From: a virus
Direction: 5' to 3' (one strand)
DNA: 34,021 bases
IMG/VR virus record: IMGVR_UViG_3300025266_000025
Coordinates: 1 to 34,021 of that record
A program made the translations under genes and the position numbers. The notes beneath the pieces were generated by a model. The model searched no databases, had not been told where the DNA came from, and was given only the letters and a program-made list of their open reading frames with translations. This document shows positions 218 to 28,714 of this stretch, one piece after another (positions within the stretch are counted from its first letter, which is position 1; every line of letters begins with the position of its first letter).

Positions 218-1252
218 ATGAGTTTTTTAGACGACTATTTAACCCTAGAAAATATTGCAGCTATTGGCGCAGGGTTTGCTACGGGCGGCGCAGGTTTTGG
301 GCTTATGGCTTCTATGGGGGCTGGAGCCGCTGCGGGAGGCGGTATTGCCGCACTACAGGGTAAAGATGTAGCTACAGGTGCTATTGGTGGTGGTTTGGCT
401 GGCATGACGGGGGGTAGTTTAAATGCTGCCTTCGCTCCCGCTAGTGCTTCTATCGGCGCTACTGCAGGTACTACAGGTACTACTGTTGCAGGTAATACAG
501 CTGGAGATGCTTACCAACAATCTCTATTCACACAACCCGGGTCTGCCGCGGATGCAATAAGTACAAACTATGGCGGTATAGAAGGCGTAAGATCTGATAA
601 TATACTAGCTCAACAGTTTACTGGGGGAGAGGGCGGAGCGCTCCAAGGGGTTACAGGATATCAACCCACAGACACAAGTTTTATGGCAGGGGTGGGGCGC
701 TTTGGTGGTGGTAATGAGTTTACCGGAGGCGGTTTAAAAGATAAAGCATTAGGCGCAGGTAGGTTGGGTATTACGGCCGCTGCACCTGCAATAATGAACT
801 CTCTCGTCCCTGAAGAATTTGATACTTTTAGTCGCAGGGGAGATAAATACGACCCTAATAAACAACTCAATCTGAATATGGATACTGGGATTGATGAAGC
901 TTTAAACAAAGACTCAGGTCTAAGGTTTTTAGCTGGAGGTGGTTATCTAAGTAATGGCTATCTTGAAGGCGGTGAAGTAGAAGAAAGCATAAATATGAGC
1001 GAAGGTATTGCTAGTGGTATGAATGATGGCATGAGTGATGATATCCCTGCCATTATTGATGGTACACAACAAGCTGCGTTGTCTGAAGGTGAGTACGTTA
1101 TCCCTGCCGATGCAGTAAGTCACTTAGGTAATGGTTCATCAGAGGCTGGCGCTACACGACTTCGTGAGATGATAGGACAACTAAGAATGGCAAGAACAGG
1201 TAGAGAAATACAAGCGCCCGAAATTGACCCTTATGAGTATATGCTCTCGTAA
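218..1252 (+). CDS. Gly/Ala-rich virion protein with conserved C-terminal domain
   Basis: 344 residues. The first 90 residues are dominated by Gly and Ala with hydrophobic stretches (GGAGFGLMASMGAGAAAGGG), as in phage proteins that meet or cross membranes during DNA ejection. The C-terminal 90 residues hold the pattern MSDDIPAIIDG, then ALSEGEYVIPADAVSHLGNG, then a basic helix. I know this arrangement from many structural proteins of marine phages. The function is unproven; a tail or ejection role is inferred from position and composition. The gene ends TAATG, its last base being the first base of the next start codon, so the two are translationally coupled. The start is preceded by AAGG about 10 bases upstream. 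Confidence 0.7.
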   Translation: MSFLDDYLTLENIAAIGAGFATGGAGFGLMASMGAGAAAGGGIAALQGKDVATGAIGGGLAGMTGGSLNAAFAPASASIGATAGTTGTTVAGNTAGDAYQQSLFTQPGSAADAISTNYGGIEGVRSDNILAQQFTGGEGGALQGVTGYQPTDTSFMAGVGRFGGGNEFTGGGLKDKALGAGRLGITAAAPAIMNSLVPEEFDTFSRRGDKYDPNKQLNLNMDTGIDEALNKDSGLRFLAGGGYLSNGYLEGGEVEESINMSEGIASGMNDGMSDDIPAIIDGTQQAALSEGEYVIPADAVSHLGNGSSEAGATRLREMIGQLRMARTGREIQAPEIDPYEYMLS

Positions 1253-10989: not shown

Positions 10990-10995
10990 ATTTTG

Positions 10996-11019
10996 GGGGG
11001 TTACCAATGCACTACCCCC
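10996..11019. other. GC-rich hairpin between convergent operons
   Basis: GGGGGT at 10996-11001 pairs with ACCCCC at 11014-11019 around a 12-base loop, just after the virion operon stop codon. There is no T-run on either strand. It may assist the terminator that follows, or end leftward transcripts from the replication block. Confidence 0.45.
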
Positions 11020-11030
11020 TACGCTAAAGT

Positions 11031-11062
11031 CCTCAGAATCGCATTCTAAGAGGTCGTTTTTT
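11031..11062 (+). terminator. Rho-independent terminator of the virion operon
   Basis: CCTC plus AGAAT (11031-11039) pairs with ATTCT plus GAGG (11043-11053), with a CGC loop and a 2-base AA bulge. The T-run TCGTTTTTT follows at 11054-11062. It lies between the stop of the giant virion gene and the convergent replication block, where a terminator is expected. The 3-base loop and the bulge make it only moderately strong. Confidence 0.6.
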
Positions 11063-11074
11063 AACAAATTTCCT

Positions 11075-23940: not shown

Positions 23941-24027
23941 CTAATTGATTAAATAGGCTAACACTAGAAAGAGAAAGCTTAGAGTAACTAAGCCTCCGTT
24001 AGCGGTGAACTCAGGTATTATATTCAT
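23941..24027 (-). CDS. 28-residue hydrophobic membrane peptide
   Basis: ATG at 24027 overlaps the stop of the upstream gene (ATGA) and has AGGAG 8-9 bases upstream. The 28 codons give a short polar head (MNIIPEFTANGG) and then LVTLSFLFLVLAYLI, a single membrane-spanning helix, ending at TAG 23941-23943. It is in a packed operon with clean coupling, so translation is likely. The role could be membrane-active (host takeover, exclusion or lysis support); nothing in the sequence decides this. Confidence 0.55.
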   Translation of the reverse strand: MNIIPEFTANGGLVTLSFLFLVLAYLIN

Positions 24028-24383
24028 GAGCAGTCTCCTATCTGGACTAGACCATCTAGGTTATACCTTTTCTGCTCTTCCTGCCACTCGATCTGCTCCT
24101 CCTTAGTTAAACATTCCTCATGTACGCGGTGGCTACCATCAGCAAACAGCGCGTTCCGAGGGGATGGCGCCTCACCACATAGTAGATCAGGCGTAATGTC
24201 GTCATCAATAGCGATGCCCTTATTACACCTATCACACTCCAACATCATGCACTGGGAGCAACCATAGCCCTCCCTATACTCACCCTCATCTGTATACATG
24301 TCAGCAGAAATTCTATTAACAAATAGTCCGCTCCCAAACGAGGTATCAGCCCCGCAAAAAATACAATCGTTTTCATTACTCAT
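24024..24383 (-). CDS. Cys-rich putative zinc-binding protein
   Basis: 119 residues with nine Cys. CIFC near the start, then CSQC, CDRC and HEEC later form three or four possible zinc knuckles (for example CMMLECDRCNKGI). It resembles treble-clef or LIM-like small proteins, but I cannot name the family. The start has the block-wide leader AAGGAGTACGACATG, and a GC hairpin cassette stands between it and the upstream gene. The first codons after the start (ATGAGTAATGAAA) match those of the 67-residue gene at 25136. Confidence 0.6.
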   Translation of the reverse strand: MSNENDCIFCGADTSFGSGLFVNRISADMYTDEGEYREGYGCSQCMMLECDRCNKGIAIDDDITPDLLCGEAPSPRNALFADGSHRVHEECLTKEEQIEWQEEQKRYNLDGLVQIGDCS

Positions 24384-24406
24384 GTCGTACTCCTTGGTTT
24401 AAAGTT

Positions 24407-24422
24407 GCCCCCTTGAGGGGGC
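24407..24422 (-). repeat. Intergenic hairpin cassette, copy 1
   Basis: Read leftwards, GCCCCCTCAAGGGGGC forms a 6-bp all-GC stem with a TCAA loop. It is followed by AACTTTAAACC and the ribosome site AAGGAG of the Cys-rich gene. The same unit recurs at 27380, 27675 and 28685. The U-run is too poor for a classical terminator. Confidence 0.85.
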
Positions 24423-24451
24423 TATGATGTTTTTCTTTGGTGTTACTCGTG

Positions 24452-24931
24452 TTACACCTCTTCTAGTTGTTTAAAATGTTCGGCATAATCTATGCACCGC
24501 TCAAGTGCTTCACCTATACCATAGCAAGCATGTTGACAATCATATGGATCGCTGTCGCCTTCAAGCAAAGTACAATAAACTCTGAGAACATCATCATATT
24601 CTGTCGTCCAATCATTATCGTGGAATTGTTCAATAGTAATCGAAGGGTGCTTTTCAATGATGGTGCGTATCTCATTTATGTGTGCTGTCGCTCGACCGCG
24701 AAAATCCGCTACACTTTTAAGCGTCCGAATGTCGCTATCCAGTCCTTCTTTAAGTTTCCTTATTTTAGACTCCTGCACTTCTATCTTTTCTTTTGCGGTT
24801 TTAATTTTATTTTCTAGTTCGGTCTTTACTATTTTGTCAAAGCGGTCAAGTTTTGATTGCCTGTAACATTTTTGTAATACTTTTACTGAGTTGTTCATGT
24901 CGTTCTCCAGTTTATTAGTTGTGTTGTTCAT
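24452..24931 (-). CDS. Hypothetical coiled-coil protein with two in-frame starts
   Basis: 159 residues from ATG 24931 (MNNTTNKLEND) or 148 from ATG 24898 (MNNSVKVLQ). The first has GGAG 4 bases upstream and follows the previous stop as TAACATG; the second has GGAG-N6-ATG and fits the leader consensus better. The front 70 residues are a Lys/Glu coiled coil (KIKTAKEKIEVQESKIRKLKEG). The rear is acidic, with DPYDCQHACYGIGEALERC containing three Cys. I do not know the family. Which start dominates cannot be read from sequence. Confidence 0.6.
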   Translation of the reverse strand: MNNTTNKLENDMNNSVKVLQKCYRQSKLDRFDKIVKTELENKIKTAKEKIEVQESKIRKLKEGLDSDIRTLKSVADFRGRATAHINEIRTIIEKHPSITIEQFHDNDWTTEYDDVLRVYCTLLEGDSDPYDCQHACYGIGEALERCIDYAEHFKQLEEV

Positions 24932-24932
24932 G

Positions 24933-25136
24933 TTACTCCGCACAAAAATCATCATAGTCAACGCTGATCATCAGCTTACATTTTCCTCCAATACTTACTA
25001 GCACATTAAATCCACAGCCACCTAAGTCGATGGGGTCTTGAATACTACTTAGCACCTCCACATCGACCCCAGTCACATCCAAATATTCCAACTCACTGTT
25101 TTCTAAGTCCCATACGGGAACCATTTCATTACTCAT
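24933..25136 (-). CDS. Hypothetical acidic 67-residue protein
   Basis: An acidic small protein with a likely beta-rich middle (GFNVLVSIGGKCKLMISVDYDDF). The leader AAGGAGTACGACATG is identical to that of the Cys-rich gene at 24383, including the first four codons. It is the first gene after a promoter-like sequence at 25167-25195. No family recognised. Confidence 0.6.
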   Translation of the reverse strand: MSNEMVPVWDLENSELEYLDVTGVDVEVLSSIQDPIDLGGCGFNVLVSIGGKCKLMISVDYDDFCAE

Positions 25137-25166
25137 GTCGTACTCCTTAGATTTACTTCATTAACT

Positions 25167-25195
25167 AAAATATACTAGTCACTGCGGGTCGTCAA
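25167..25195 (-). promoter_or_regulatory. Internal sigma70-type promoter
   Basis: Read leftwards: TTGACG (plus 25190-25195), a 17-base spacer, then TATTTT (plus 25167-25172), 31 bases before the start of the 67-residue gene. It stands in one of the few real gaps of the leftward block (25137-25273), which otherwise holds no convincing gene. It would re-initiate transcription for the distal early and replication genes. Confidence 0.5.
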
Positions 25196-25273
25196 CAATT
25201 ATTTTCTTGCTCACAATCCTAAACACCGCCCTCCTTCAGTTAAAATTAAATGACCGTTGCCTCTCGTGCCTCG

Positions 25274-25510
25274 TTACTTACCTCCTCCGAATAGTTTCTT
25301 AAGTATCTTGCTAGACTCACGGAACGCCTCGATCTGTGGCAGGAATAGCGCCGGGTTTTTATTAACGTGCCCCTGTATTAACTCTAGCTCCCTACCGTGT
25401 GTCTCGTTGTTAACGAAGGCGTATAGCTTATCTAGTAGACGGTTACTTACCCCTCGACTCAAAACCAGTCGCTCTTCTTCTAGTCGCACCTTAATATCTC
25501 TCTGGTTCAT
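25274..25510 (-). CDS. Hypothetical helical 78-residue protein
   Basis: Charged and helical (VRLEEERLVLSRGVSNRLLDKL), ending in KILKKLFGGGK. The start overlaps the stop of the upstream gene (ATGA), so translation is coupled. The Gly-rich basic tail may be flexible. No motif allows a functional call. Confidence 0.55.
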   Translation of the reverse strand: MNQRDIKVRLEEERLVLSRGVSNRLLDKLYAFVNNETHGRELELIQGHVNKNPALFLPQIEAFRESSKILKKLFGGGK

Positions 25511-25752
25511 ATCGTTTCCGCCTTGGTTTCAAAGGTATAGCCCAGATTCTTGGCTATTGCGACGGTGCCTGCAGTGAGTGTTTCGTTACCCGCCAGCCGA
25601 GCGATGAGCCGGCTCTTGTTGCAGGCAGGGTAGACCAAAGCGTTACCGTATACCTGTTTCTTCTCAACAATTAGTCGCATAGTATTCTCCTTATTAGTTG
25701 TGGGAAATCCTGCCTTAGTGCTGTTATAAATCATCGTTGCTATATCACTCAT
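25507..25752 (-). CDS. Conserved small phage protein with in-frame leader start
   Basis: The likely core is the 57-residue product from ATG 25680 (MRLIVEKKQVYGNALVYPACNKSRLIARLAG...), a layout I recall from small phage proteins of about this length that begin in this way. GGAGAATACT stands directly before that ATG. An upstream in-frame ATG at 25752 with AAGGAG would add 24 residues (MSDIATMIYNSTKAGF...). The upstream ATG follows the previous stop as TAACATG. Both forms may be made. The function is unknown. Confidence 0.6.
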   Translation of the reverse strand: MSDIATMIYNSTKAGFPTTNKENTMRLIVEKKQVYGNALVYPACNKSRLIARLAGNETLTAGTVAIAKNLGYTFETKAETI

Positions 25753-25753
25753 G

Positions 25754-26200
25754 TTACTTCTCCTTGTTATCATTTAAGATATGTATTTCAGTGTCCGGCC
25801 TAATCCTTAGTTCTGGATCCCACATGTCCTCCTCTCGCTCGTCATTAAAGTCTAACTCAATATCAAAAGATAATAGGTCACAGTCCCCCTCGGATTTCCC
25901 TAGCCATCGATCAACTAAATCATAGCAGTCCTCATCTACACCCCGAAAGCCTGTAGCCCTATTAACATTATCATCTAGCGTGACAATCCCATGATCTATA
26001 AAGAACGGTATATCTAAATCCGATATGCGTTGGGGATCAAAAGCATCGTCAGTCCATACCGCCCAACAATTTAATGTTATCCCATCAGGCGGTGAGGTTA
26101 GCTTACTAGTATGTTCCCGCACCAATTTCTGCACCTCGCTCTGTACACTTTCTCCATCATTAATATCTACTACAATATCTACTACTATGTCGTTACTCAT
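25754..26200 (-). CDS. Hypothetical acidic 148-residue protein
   Basis: The start is set at ATG 26200 (MSNDIVVDIVV), 6 bases after GGAGG; a TTG two codons upstream would lack proper spacing. It is very rich in Asp and Glu, with almost no basic clusters (CDLLSFDIELDFNDEREEDMWDPE). This could be a DNA-mimic-like or simply an acidic accessory protein; no family recognised. It overlaps the upstream gene by 8 bases (ATGAGTAA). Confidence 0.55.
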   Translation of the reverse strand: MSNDIVVDIVVDINDGESVQSEVQKLVREHTSKLTSPPDGITLNCWAVWTDDAFDPQRISDLDIPFFIDHGIVTLDDNVNRATGFRGVDEDCYDLVDRWLGKSEGDCDLLSFDIELDFNDEREEDMWDPELRIRPDTEIHILNDNKEK

Positions 26201-26405
26201 CTTCAACCTCCGTCACTTGAAACCTTTTAGATTCGCCAGTCGTGTCGGTCTCCCTTGTTCCGTCCGGCATGGTAATAACAGGATATATAGTAAGCATAAG
26301 CCCACCGTTGGAATCATCAATATAAAAATTTAGATCGACTAAATCCCCATTTTCTGTTTCTATTTCAGCCCAACTATCATAGGGCCATTCAAAGACTTTA
26401 CTCAT
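26193..26405 (-). CDS. Hypothetical acidic 70-residue protein
   Basis: Start at ATG 26405 (MSKVFEWPYDSWAEI), with AAGGAG upstream; a GTG two codons earlier is too close to the site. It is predicted beta-rich (LVDLNFYIDDSNGGLMLTIYPVI) with an acidic end. It overlaps both neighbours by 8 bases as ATGAGTAA, so three consecutive genes share the same junction style. Unknown function. Confidence 0.55.
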   Translation of the reverse strand: MSKVFEWPYDSWAEIETENGDLVDLNFYIDDSNGGLMLTIYPVITMPDGTRETDTTGESKRFQVTEVEDE

Positions 26406-26568
26406 CTTCACTCTCCTTTAAAAATTCTCTGCGGACAATGCTGTCCTCTAGATAGATAGTTTGTTTCGTATCCGTGTTCCCACAGTGGGGGCATTTCTCA
26501 ATTGTGTTGTCAGGATTTTCTGCATACAAATCTTCACATTTTAAACAACAAATTACTTGCTTATCCAT
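26398..26568 (-). CDS. 56-residue zinc-ribbon protein
   Basis: ATG at 26568 follows AAGGAG by 7 bases and opens 56 codons. Two knuckles, CCLKC (Cys8 and Cys11) and CPHC (26-29) followed by GN, form a rubredoxin/zinc-ribbon pair. The helical acidic tail ends KESEDE. It overlaps the next gene by 8 bases (ATGAGTAA). Zinc ribbons of this size often bind nucleic acid or RNA polymerase, so a transcription-modulating early protein is a reasonable but untested idea. Confidence 0.7.
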   Translation of the reverse strand: MDKQVICCLKCEDLYAENPDNTIEKCPHCGNTDTKQTIYLEDSIVRREFLKESEDE

Positions 26569-26593
26569 ATCATTCTCCTTGGTTTTTCTTTGG

Positions 26594-27355
26594 TTATGCT
26601 ACTTGTAGCGTTGGTATTAGTGATGCGGTCTTAAACTTCTTTGCATTTGTCCCATGTATTGTTACAACAATAGAGGGTGCCTCCGATACCCTCGATTCTT
26701 TCTTGCCGGTGTTACATAGCCCACAGTCTATACATTGAACACCGCCAGACTCGAAGGCGCAGGGTATCTCATTGGGGTATAGATTGTCGTTGGGGTTGGC
26801 TACCCTGAACGTGCGGTAGTTCATGTCGTGATACTTCTTAGCTTGCTTGGGGCTGTCTGCCGACACCATGCAGAGCGTAGCTATCCTTGGATCAAAGTTC
26901 TTATGCTCTACTTGATGCGTATATCCCGTGGTACTCATAGATAGCTTGGCGATAGGCTCAAGACATTCGAAAGGGACGCAGGCAGGATCTCCATAAGCAC
27001 CGAACCTTGTCTTTCTCCACCGCAATAACTCACCATGAATCTCTGGATCGAATACAGGGTACAGTCCTCTCTTATATGACTTGTAGACTTGAAGGGGGGC
27101 TTGTCCTAGATTGACGTAGCATGATCCCTTCTTACCCTTATGTCTTCTATGAAGACAATTGCCACAGACAGACTCATCAAGCCCTTCTTTTTCTGCTGTT
27201 ACAGGGTCTACATCGGATCGCATAAACCATACCTGAGTCATGTTACCTGTCTTCATATTGCCAGACTCGAAGGTTAGTATAGCTACTACTTCTTTGCCAT
27301 CTATCCTACTTTTTCCTAGGTATATGATGACACCTTTAGGTGCTTTCTTTTTCAT
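26594..27355 (-). CDS. Conserved phage protein with Cys clusters
   Basis: 253 residues. The pattern GNMTQVWFMRSDVDPVTA, then CGNCLHRRHKGKKGSCYVNLGQAPLQVYKSYKRGLYP, and a C-terminal CIDCGLC motif is one I know from uncharacterised phage and plasmid proteins. There are two possible metal sites: CGNC plus the later SCYV, and CIDCGLC near residues 216-222. The latter resembles an iron-sulfur or zinc ligand set. The enzyme activity is unknown. GAGGAG lies before the start, and a hairpin cassette separates it from the gene upstream. Confidence 0.6.
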   Translation of the reverse strand: MKKKAPKGVIIYLGKSRIDGKEVVAILTFESGNMKTGNMTQVWFMRSDVDPVTAEKEGLDESVCGNCLHRRHKGKKGSCYVNLGQAPLQVYKSYKRGLYPVFDPEIHGELLRWRKTRFGAYGDPACVPFECLEPIAKLSMSTTGYTHQVEHKNFDPRIATLCMVSADSPKQAKKYHDMNYRTFRVANPNDNLYPNEIPCAFESGGVQCIDCGLCNTGKKESRVSEAPSIVVTIHGTNAKKFKTASLIPTLQVA

Positions 27356-27379
27356 ATTGTTTCTCCTCGGTTTAAAGTT

Positions 27380-27395
27380 GCCCCCTTGAGGGGGC
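27380..27395 (-). repeat. Intergenic hairpin cassette, copy 2
   Basis: Identical 16-base hairpin to copy 1, here starting directly after the TAA of the 84-residue gene and 24 bases before the next ATG (27355). It is part of a longer imperfect repeat, 27358-27420 against 27653-27715, in which the last 22 bases are identical. Confidence 0.85.
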
Positions 27396-27650
27396 TTAGG
27401 TTGGTGTTATGCCGCTTGTTGCTCCCGTTTTTATGGCTACCTCCTCTTTAAGAATATCGAACTCAATAAAACTTATATCGGTGCTACATCGGCCGAGCTT
27501 TTCAATAACCCTCTTACTCATAGAGCCGTGATGCTTGCGAAACTCCGGCGCGGTTGCCGCTAGACCTAGCGCATTGTTTATAGCTACCTTGGCTATTACT
27601 AGCTGTTCTCGTTGGACTCGTAGAGCCTCTAATTTTTCTATCGTAGTCAT
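27396..27650 (-). CDS. Hypothetical helical 84-residue protein
   Basis: Helical, with Leu/Ile/Arg/Glu heptads (IEKLEALRVQREQLVIAKVAINNAL) and a basic centre. GAGGAGTACAACATG is the start region. The last residues SGITPT are encoded by a stretch that also occurs downstream of the ArdC-like gene, where it is read in another frame and gives the stop. The 3' end may therefore have been replaced when the repeat cassette was copied. Unknown function. Confidence 0.55.
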   Translation of the reverse strand: MTTIEKLEALRVQREQLVIAKVAINNALGLAATAPEFRKHHGSMSKRVIEKLGRCSTDISFIEFDILKEEVAIKTGATSGITPT

Positions 27651-27674
27651 GTTGTACTCCTCAGTTTTAAAGTA

Positions 27675-27690
27675 GCCCCCTTGAGGGGGC
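27675..27690 (-). repeat. Intergenic hairpin cassette, copy 3
   Basis: The same GCCCCC-TCAA-GGGGGC hairpin, placed between the ArdC-like gene and the 84-residue gene, followed leftwards by TACTTTAAAAC and GAGGAG. Upstream flank ACACCAACCAAC is shared with the other copies. Confidence 0.85.
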
Positions 27691-27701
27691 GTTGGTTGGT
27701 G

Positions 27702-28661
27702 TTATGCCGCTTGTTTCTCTTCTTGTTTGTACTCAACTCCTAGTACAAAGTCGCTTGCTTTCTGTGCTAACCCGAAGGCTTTGACTATCACTTTCTTATC
27801 CTTCTTGAGCACTTCCACCCAGTGATTCAGGTATTGAGCATTGGATGGGCTTGGCTCTGGTTTAACATCGAGCATACTACATAAGAATACAGATCCTATC
27901 TCTGCTACCAGTTCCTCAAAGGCATAGGCTCCATCTCCGAATCTTCCTGAGAAGTCCCTTGCTAGTCTGTCCTTATGTCCTGTCCAATGAGTTAACTCAT
28001 GGAGTAGGGTGCCGTAGTATGCTTCCTCGGCAGTATCATAGTTAGTGTCTACGAAGGACTCTTTCTTTGGCATCTTGATCCTATCAAACGTCGGCATGAA
28101 GCAGGCTGTATCTCCTCTATGTACTATCGAGGCTCCCGTTGATTTCACTGCTTGCTCTGCAAGGATGTTGCAGAATACATCTGGCTTGGTGTTATCCTCT
28201 TCCAGTGTCTTACCTTCATACCCTTCCACTTGGTCAGCGTTAAAGACATAGTGATACTTAAGATTAGGTATTATCTTCTCTATCTCTTCTCCCTGCTTAT
28301 CTTCAGTCTTTATCTTGATCATATTGAAGTAGGTTATCAGCGTTCCCTTCTCTCCTTTCTTTATCTGATAGCCTCCGGCTTCTGCTTGGTTGTAAGTCAT
28401 AAATTCCCCTGAAGTCCAACCTTTTACATGGATCATATGACTCAGCAAGAATATATTAAGCCCCCTATAAGAGCGGCTTGTTATAGCGTTCCGAAGTGTC
28501 CCTCCCTTCGCTGTATTTTTCCATGGTTTGCACCAATCGGTGCCGTGTTGTTCCATCGATTCAACTATCTTGTCAGTGATCAGTTGGTATACATCAACCT
28601 TTACTTTCTTCTTAAAGTTTTTCATAGTCTTATTACCTGTAGTTTTAGTTGTGTTTTTCAT
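27702..28661 (-). CDS. ardC: ArdC-type antirestriction protein
   Basis: 319 residues. The N-terminal domain (about 20-145: DVYQLITDKIVESMEQHGTDWCKPWKN...SYRGLNIFLL...WTSGEFMTYNQAEAGGYQIKKGEKGT) is the ArdC/TraC-like ssDNA-binding domain. The C-terminal zincin domain has HELTHWTGH at 221-229 and a downstream AFEELVAEIG helix with Glu254 as probable third ligand. ArdC proteins carried by plasmids and phages protect incoming DNA against restriction. The position near the promoter of the early block fits this. A second in-frame ATG (28625, MKNFKKKV) repeats the first residues MKN. It is a full-length member with motifs intact. Confidence 0.85.
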   Translation of the reverse strand: MKNTTKTTGNKTMKNFKKKVKVDVYQLITDKIVESMEQHGTDWCKPWKNTAKGGTLRNAITSRSYRGLNIFLLSHMIHVKGWTSGEFMTYNQAEAGGYQIKKGEKGTLITYFNMIKIKTEDKQGEEIEKIIPNLKYHYVFNADQVEGYEGKTLEEDNTKPDVFCNILAEQAVKSTGASIVHRGDTACFMPTFDRIKMPKKESFVDTNYDTAEEAYYGTLLHELTHWTGHKDRLARDFSGRFGDGAYAFEELVAEIGSVFLCSMLDVKPEPSPSNAQYLNHWVEVLKKDKKVIVKAFGLAQKASDFVLGVEYKQEEKQAA

Positions 28662-28684
28662 ATCGTACTCCTTGGTTTAAAGTA

Positions 28685-28700
28685 GCCCCCTTGAGGGGGC
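28685..28700 (-). repeat. Intergenic hairpin cassette, copy 4
   Basis: The same 16-base hairpin between the 165-residue gene and the ArdC-like gene. Leftwards it continues TACTTTAAACC, AAGGAG, TACGAT, ATG, the closest match to the leader of copy 1. Confidence 0.85.
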
Positions 28701-28714
28701 TTTGGTTGGTTGGG

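Follow-up and report, generated by a model that had tools for sequence, protein, structure and literature searches.

Hairpins at a fixed distance from start codons in the accessory genes of an uncultured phage and its relatives

Four hairpin copies in an accessory-gene block

The stretch analysed, referred to below as the window, is a 34,021-base fragment of the genome of an uncultured phage. It encodes DNA polymerase A, a primase-helicase, an ssDNA-binding protein and a terminase. In its terminase it shares about 50% identity with the Pelagibacter phages HTVC027P and HTVC023P and with phage DSL-LC04. These are the nearest isolates by this protein and have genomes of 58–62 kb, compared with the 34,021 bases of the window record.

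The palindromic 16-mer GCCCCCTCAAGGGGGC occurs in four exact copies on the minus strand (Table 1), all located between leftward genes of the accessory block. The chance expectation in the window is 0.14 matches, and no fifth copy was found in the 34,021-base record with up to three mismatches allowed. As the palindrome reads on both strands, a scan lists eight matches for the four sites. A sequence-only reading of the window had placed the copies at 28685, 27675, 27380 and 24407, confined them to the accessory block and described each as followed by WACTTTAAA, a purine-rich ribosome site and ATG; positions, confinement and downstream order are correct for all four copies, the ribosome site being GGAG. 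Its further statement that most copies are preceded by ACACCAACC applies exactly at 27675 and 27380, but 28685 has CCAACCAACC instead and 24407 has neither. The distance from hairpin to ATG is 23–24 nt in all four cases, with the GGAG located in the linker. The hairpins are predicted to fold with a mean pair probability above 0.99. Their loop, UCAA, is not among the classical stable loops, and the stems are followed by TACTTTAA or AACTTTAA, without a U-run.

Table 1. Positions of hairpins, linkers, genes and flank repeats in the window.
Feature	Positions	Strand
Hairpin copy 1 (GCCCCCTCAAGGGGGC at 28685–28700 plus one A–U pair), before the ArdC gene	28684..28701	-
Linker ACTTTAAACCAAGGAGTACGAT; GGAG at 28668–28671	28662..28683	-
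ArdC-like antirestriction protein (ArdcN and zincin-like metallopeptidase), 319 aa	27702..28661	-
Hairpin copy 2, before the 84-aa ORF	27675..27690	-
Linker containing TACTTTAAAACTGAGGAG; GGAG at 27657–27660	27651..27674	-
84-aa ORF, apparent insertion; 3' end is the duplicated ArdC tail in another frame	27396..27650	-
Hairpin copy 3, before the PHROG 2554 gene	27380..27395	-
Linker; GGAG at 27363–27366	27356..27379	-
PHROG 2554 protein, function not assigned, 253 aa	26594..27355	-
Hairpin copy 4, before the 119-aa ORF	24407..24422	-
Linker; GGAG at 24390–24393	24384..24406	-
119-aa ORF, PHROG 35699	24024..24383	-
Left-flank repeat copy A: ArdC tail and hairpin 2, 54 bp, 93% identical to copy B	27666..27719	-
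Left-flank repeat copy B: tail of the 84-aa ORF and hairpin 3	27371..27424	-
Right-flank repeat copy A: 44 bp from hairpin 1 through the start codon; identity to copy B, 95%	28658..28701	-
Right-flank repeat copy B: from hairpin 4 through the start codon	24380..24423	-

The sequence shared between copies extends beyond the hairpin in different directions. Copies 2 and 3 have 54 bp in common, including the ArdC tail, while their right flanks differ beyond TAAA. For copies 1 and 4 the common stretch is 44 bp long and runs rightward through the start codon, and it is the left flanks that differ. The window copies are thus mosaics joined at the hairpin.

Comparison of start regions revealed two further features. 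The unrelated ORFs at 24933–25136 and 24024–24383 (both minus strand) have AAGGAGTACGACATGAGTAATGAAA in common, which spans the ribosome site and the first codons. One of the two has the hairpin and the other lacks it, so that sharing can be limited to the start region. In the linkers (27651–27674 and 28662–28684, minus strand), pairing is possible between TACTTT and the GGAGTA that includes the ribosome site, and is predicted for the 84-aa ORF. It is not kept in the ArdC leaders of the related contigs L012 and L024.

Searches against Rfam gave zero matches in the window at the gathering score; at E-values up to 1 the sole match was a sub-threshold SgrS at 24941–25105, away from the hairpins. 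A separate noncoding element of 74 bp (10990–11063, minus strand) is 90–96% identical to contigs L009–L016, coding DNA being about 77% identical. It lies upstream of polA in these contigs; in the window it is flanked by the 2090-aa ORF and the primase gene. The element contains two potential stems, CTCAGAAT...ATTCTGAG and GGGGGT...ACCCCC, and no Rfam match to it was found.

Start-anchored hairpins in related phages

Hairpin plus linker was found in only two records among viral contigs, both 99.96–99.97% identical to the window. The strict pattern of hairpin, linker and ribosome site had no match in 84,980 bacterial and archaeal genomes, and a 5.5-kb block had no DNA match among 50,697 phage records. 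The exact sequence is therefore private to the window and near-identical contigs, which alone would suggest a local repeat. Weak short-query matches to Vequintavirinae (E about 10) were dismissed as chance; the two inspected match outside the hairpin. A looser pattern matched four further viral contigs, of which L073 looks like chance. In L074 and L076/L077 (one sequence represented twice), which are unrelated sequences, a hairpin does precede a ribosome site. In L076 (near 595–650, minus strand) and L077 (9877–9907), AAGTACTCCCCCAATTGGGGGAGTACTT lies directly 5' of AAAAAGGAG, followed by ATG, an independent case of hairpin plus ribosome site in unrelated viral sequence.

We scanned relatives sharing about 80–84% polymerase or 77–94% terminase sequence with the window for perfect stems before ribosome sites, using simple ORF calls of our own. 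Hairpin 3' ends peak 16–27 nt before the start codon, with 53 observed at 466 SD-bearing starts with room upstream compared with about 2 in dinucleotide-preserving shuffles; some of the contigs counted are not mutually independent. By a stricter count, 35 of 478 starts have a hairpin (shuffles, 2.2; coding control stretches, 5 of 466). Where the upstream ORF is at least 100 nt away, 29 hairpins are found 10–39 nt before the start (about 3 in shuffles). As the peak persists at such gaps, hairpin position tracks the start codon and not the available gap. The frequency is much higher at leftward accessory starts (40/191) than at rightward ones (7/174; p = 7e-7). Among 267 starts of unrelated ArdC-carrying phages, a weak excess was obtained (13 hairpins versus 3.2 in shuffles).

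The hairpin feature is real and much wider than could be seen from one sequence, from which its genome-specific sequence and its anchoring to start codons were invisible. The sequence-only reading had made copies outside this genome a check on its proposal, and the outcome is two-sided: the exact 16-mer occurs only in near-identical contigs, but structurally equivalent hairpins of different sequence recur throughout the clade.

Stem sequence goes with the genome rather than with the gene. The closest relatives, L012 and L024, have leaders with GCCCCCC-TCAA-GGGGGGC, GCCCCC-TAAC-GGGGGC and GCCCCC-TTTA-GGGGGC, and L012 has in addition GCCCCTC-TCAA-GGGGGGC, in which one C–G pair is changed to U–G. 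Other stems are GGGACT-AWWT-AGTCCC (L091), ACGCGA-CCWG-TCGCGT (L099), TGTATCG-CATR-CGATACA (L105), CCTGACA-NNN-TGTCAGG (L132), TGTCGTAA-NN-TTACGACA (L010 and L083), TTCACG-NNNN-CGTGAA (L146, L147, L154 and L159) and GGGGGC-TTCG-GCCCCC (L146, L153 and L154). In several genomes the stem arms are nearly invariant and the loops vary. A stem 5-mer is common to 27 of 43 hairpin pairs within a contig (63%) versus 75 of 1668 between contigs (4.5%), and none of 500 label shuffles matched this observation. Orthologous genes illustrate the same point. The MoxR-like ATPase (named from its sequence) is 65–72% identical between L010, L091 and L132, and its leaders carry, at the same place, the TGTCGTAA, GGGACT and CCTGACA stems, one per lineage. 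A protein of roughly 306 aa, 52–63% identical between L091, L132, L147 and L159, likewise has GGGACT, CCTGACA or TTCACG stems at the same place, differing by lineage.

The structural details are mixed. The hyperstable RNA loops C(UUCG)G or C(GNRA)G are present in 7 of 43 distinct tetraloop hairpins. Single-pair deviations in the general scan were G–U in three cases and A–C in none, a small sample, and deviant family copies near starts carry A–C changes, which leaves no clear preference for G–U over A–C. By inspection, extra pairing at the stem base is frequent in L132 and L091 and absent in L146. TTCACG-N4-CGTGAA is weak as RNA (about -5 kcal/mol), and in some leaders part of the ribosome site is paired according to folding prediction. 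Some copies of the hairpin families in relatives do not adjoin a ribosome site.

Joints between exchanged genes and possible roles of the hairpin

Traces of gene exchange are also found in the relatives. In L012, three small genes that are missing from L024 lie between the two copies of an exact 70-bp duplication, which takes in the end of the upstream gene's coding sequence (its last codons). Behind ArdC, the linker TACTTTAAAACTGAGGAG is identical in the window, L012 and L024, and the next gene is unrelated (84 aa versus 69 aa). In L146 and L154, two different genes follow the same GGGGGCTTCGGCCCCC leader. Mosaic flanks, the L012 duplication and different genes behind the same leader lend comparative support to the earlier suggestion of a recombination seam, the evidence being a few loci rather than a genome-wide breakpoint test. 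The other earlier suggestion of an element that processes or stabilises transcripts would agree with the anchoring at starts. The comparison establishes the position of the hairpins, their clade-wide recurrence there, their genome-specific sequence and their location at joints between swapped genes.

These data suggest that the hairpins are a start-linked mRNA element which also marks the joints of accessory-gene swaps. An RNA element beside the site of translation initiation is indicated by the fixed start spacing, the stable RNA loops of some relatives, the predicted folding and the absence of a U-run. We tentatively favour a start-anchored mRNA stem-loop that acts on translation or transcript processing and has spread with gene cassettes, an explanation to which we give slightly less than an even chance. 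The repeats would be stem-loops in accessory-gene leaders within leftward polycistronic phage messages. The G–C stem of 6–7 bp would have its base some 23 nt ahead of the AUG, where an initiating ribosome has its 5' edge, and the ribosome site would be left in the linker downstream. Acting at the RNA level, it would most likely insulate the ribosome site from upstream sequence and protect processed transcript ends. The likeness of copies within a genome would result from duplication and exchange of leader plus gene as one cassette, by recombination at the repeat. Small accessory genes that travel together with their leader might in this way be expressed as soon as they are inserted. We consider it rather unlikely, as a more specific form, that the stem-loops are private lineage tags read by a lineage-specific phage factor, forming a translational regulon which newly captured genes join by gaining the tag through recombination.

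Our confidence in the mRNA stem-loop is limited because nearly invariant arms with variable centres, copies away from starts and A–C deviations would suit a DNA-binding dimer. The main rival, to which we assign a low but appreciable probability, is accordingly a palindromic DNA operator: a phage regulator that acts as a dimer and is specific to each genome would bind the repeats and block or tune transcription of the genes that follow them. Stems such as CCTGACA-NNN-TGTCAGG and TGTCGTAA-NN-TTACGACA have the expected architecture, loops occur in both orientations, the half-sites vary by lineage as repressor specificities do, and the SPbeta repeats turned out to be repressor sites (PMC10516654). 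However, an operator needs no fixed distance to the start codon, yet the spacing of 16–27 nt holds even in long gaps, and the UUCG and GNRA loops of some relatives also speak for RNA. Moreover, no promoter overlapping the four window hairpins was seen with a sigma-70 consensus, which may differ from that of the host, and no DNA-binding regulator was recognised among the window proteins scanned. If the stem sequence were instead recognised in the mRNA by a phage protein, through which all tagged genes would be controlled jointly at the level of translation, the start-anchored position and the genome-specific stem common to unrelated genes would be accounted for. T4 regulators such as gp43 bind hairpins at translation starts (PMC3014915), and the -UAAC- loop of the gp43 site recurs in one L012/L024 hairpin. 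This is nevertheless improbable, as loops, the part such proteins usually read, vary within several genomes, and no candidate protein was identified.

A repeat that persists purely as insertion homology, a recombination seam or mobile palindrome devoid of any expression role, would agree with the mosaic flanks of the window, the duplication in L012 and the differing genes behind one L146/L154 leader. It would leave unexplained both the fixed start-codon distance and the perfect stems where flanks have diverged (L132), and we regard it as quite improbable. Least probable of all are weak or decayed intrinsic terminators attenuating the message between genes. At least five T within the 8 nt after the stem are found in 11 of 59 start-anchored hairpins of the clade, and one GGGGGCTTCGGCCCCC copy elsewhere in L154 is followed by TTTTTTT, but a U-run is present at no window copy and is lacking at most clade copies (fewer than five T in 48 of 59), in agreement with the initial judgement that a classical terminator is unlikely. 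An N4-type hairpin promoter would call for a phage single-subunit virion RNA polymerase; no RNA polymerase was found in the window, a genome fragment, and the 2090-aa ORF matches LPD38 and PHROGs of no assigned function, not RNA polymerase.

Comparison with known phage repeats

Cluster A stoperators are repeated, phage-specific short sites between genes which are bound by a repressor. The SPbeta repeated element (SPBRE), bound by the repressor MrpR, lies in promoter regions (PMC10516654). The window hairpins resemble both in being repeated, phage-specific and intergenic. They differ from SPBRE in their fixed spacing to the start codon, and no promoter was seen at the window hairpins and no repressor among the window proteins scanned. 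SPBRE is a precedent for phage repeats of this type proving to be repressor sites.

Promoter-early stem-loops (PeSLs) of T4-type phages are described as stem-loop cassettes of hyperplastic regions which are tied to gene shuffling (as cited in PMC4503421). In a PeSL, a terminator-like stem is joined with an early promoter. The hairpins of the window clade are similar in marking joints between shuffled genes (at a few loci). They differ in having neither a U-run nor an adjacent sigma-70-like promoter (a consensus which may not be the host's), the hairpin being tied to the ribosome site instead. In Citrobacter phage Mordin, an SAS-like 26-bp repeat, CCAACAATCCTAAACTGGAGAATCTA, precedes eight genes (PMC4611695). 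It is similar to the sequence on either side of the L012 hairpin, in the parts CCAAC...TAAACC..GGAGAA, but the printed consensus has no hairpin between those parts.

In our assessment, the nearest known kind are the start-associated sequences (SAS/ESAS) of cluster K mycobacteriophages, repeats located just 5' of the starts of unrelated, mostly non-structural genes (PMC3203893). The ESAS are 17-bp repeats with imperfect symmetry, for which pairing in mRNA has been considered improbable, and those of Adephagia hold a SigA-like promoter (PMC11373665). The 13-bp SAS, GGGATAGGAGCCC, is absent from the four window leaders, which read WACTTTAAA...GGAG, and no ESAS-type promoter hexamers overlap the four window hairpins (judged by a sigma-70-like consensus, which may not be the host's); for lack of the SAS 13-mer and of an embedded promoter, we have not filed the window repeat as a member. 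In addition, the stems described here are short, perfect and replaced outright between lineages. The likeness lies in an inverted repeat 5' of the start codons of several unrelated genes, and in a consensus that differs between subgroups, as the ESAS inverted repeat varies between subclusters (PMC3203893) and stem sharing here falls from 63% within to 4.5% between contigs. SAS/ESAS at phage start codons became known in 2011 and continue to be described as repeats of unclear role; the present clade, with many independent stems at the same place before orthologous genes, is a natural experiment that separates structure from sequence.
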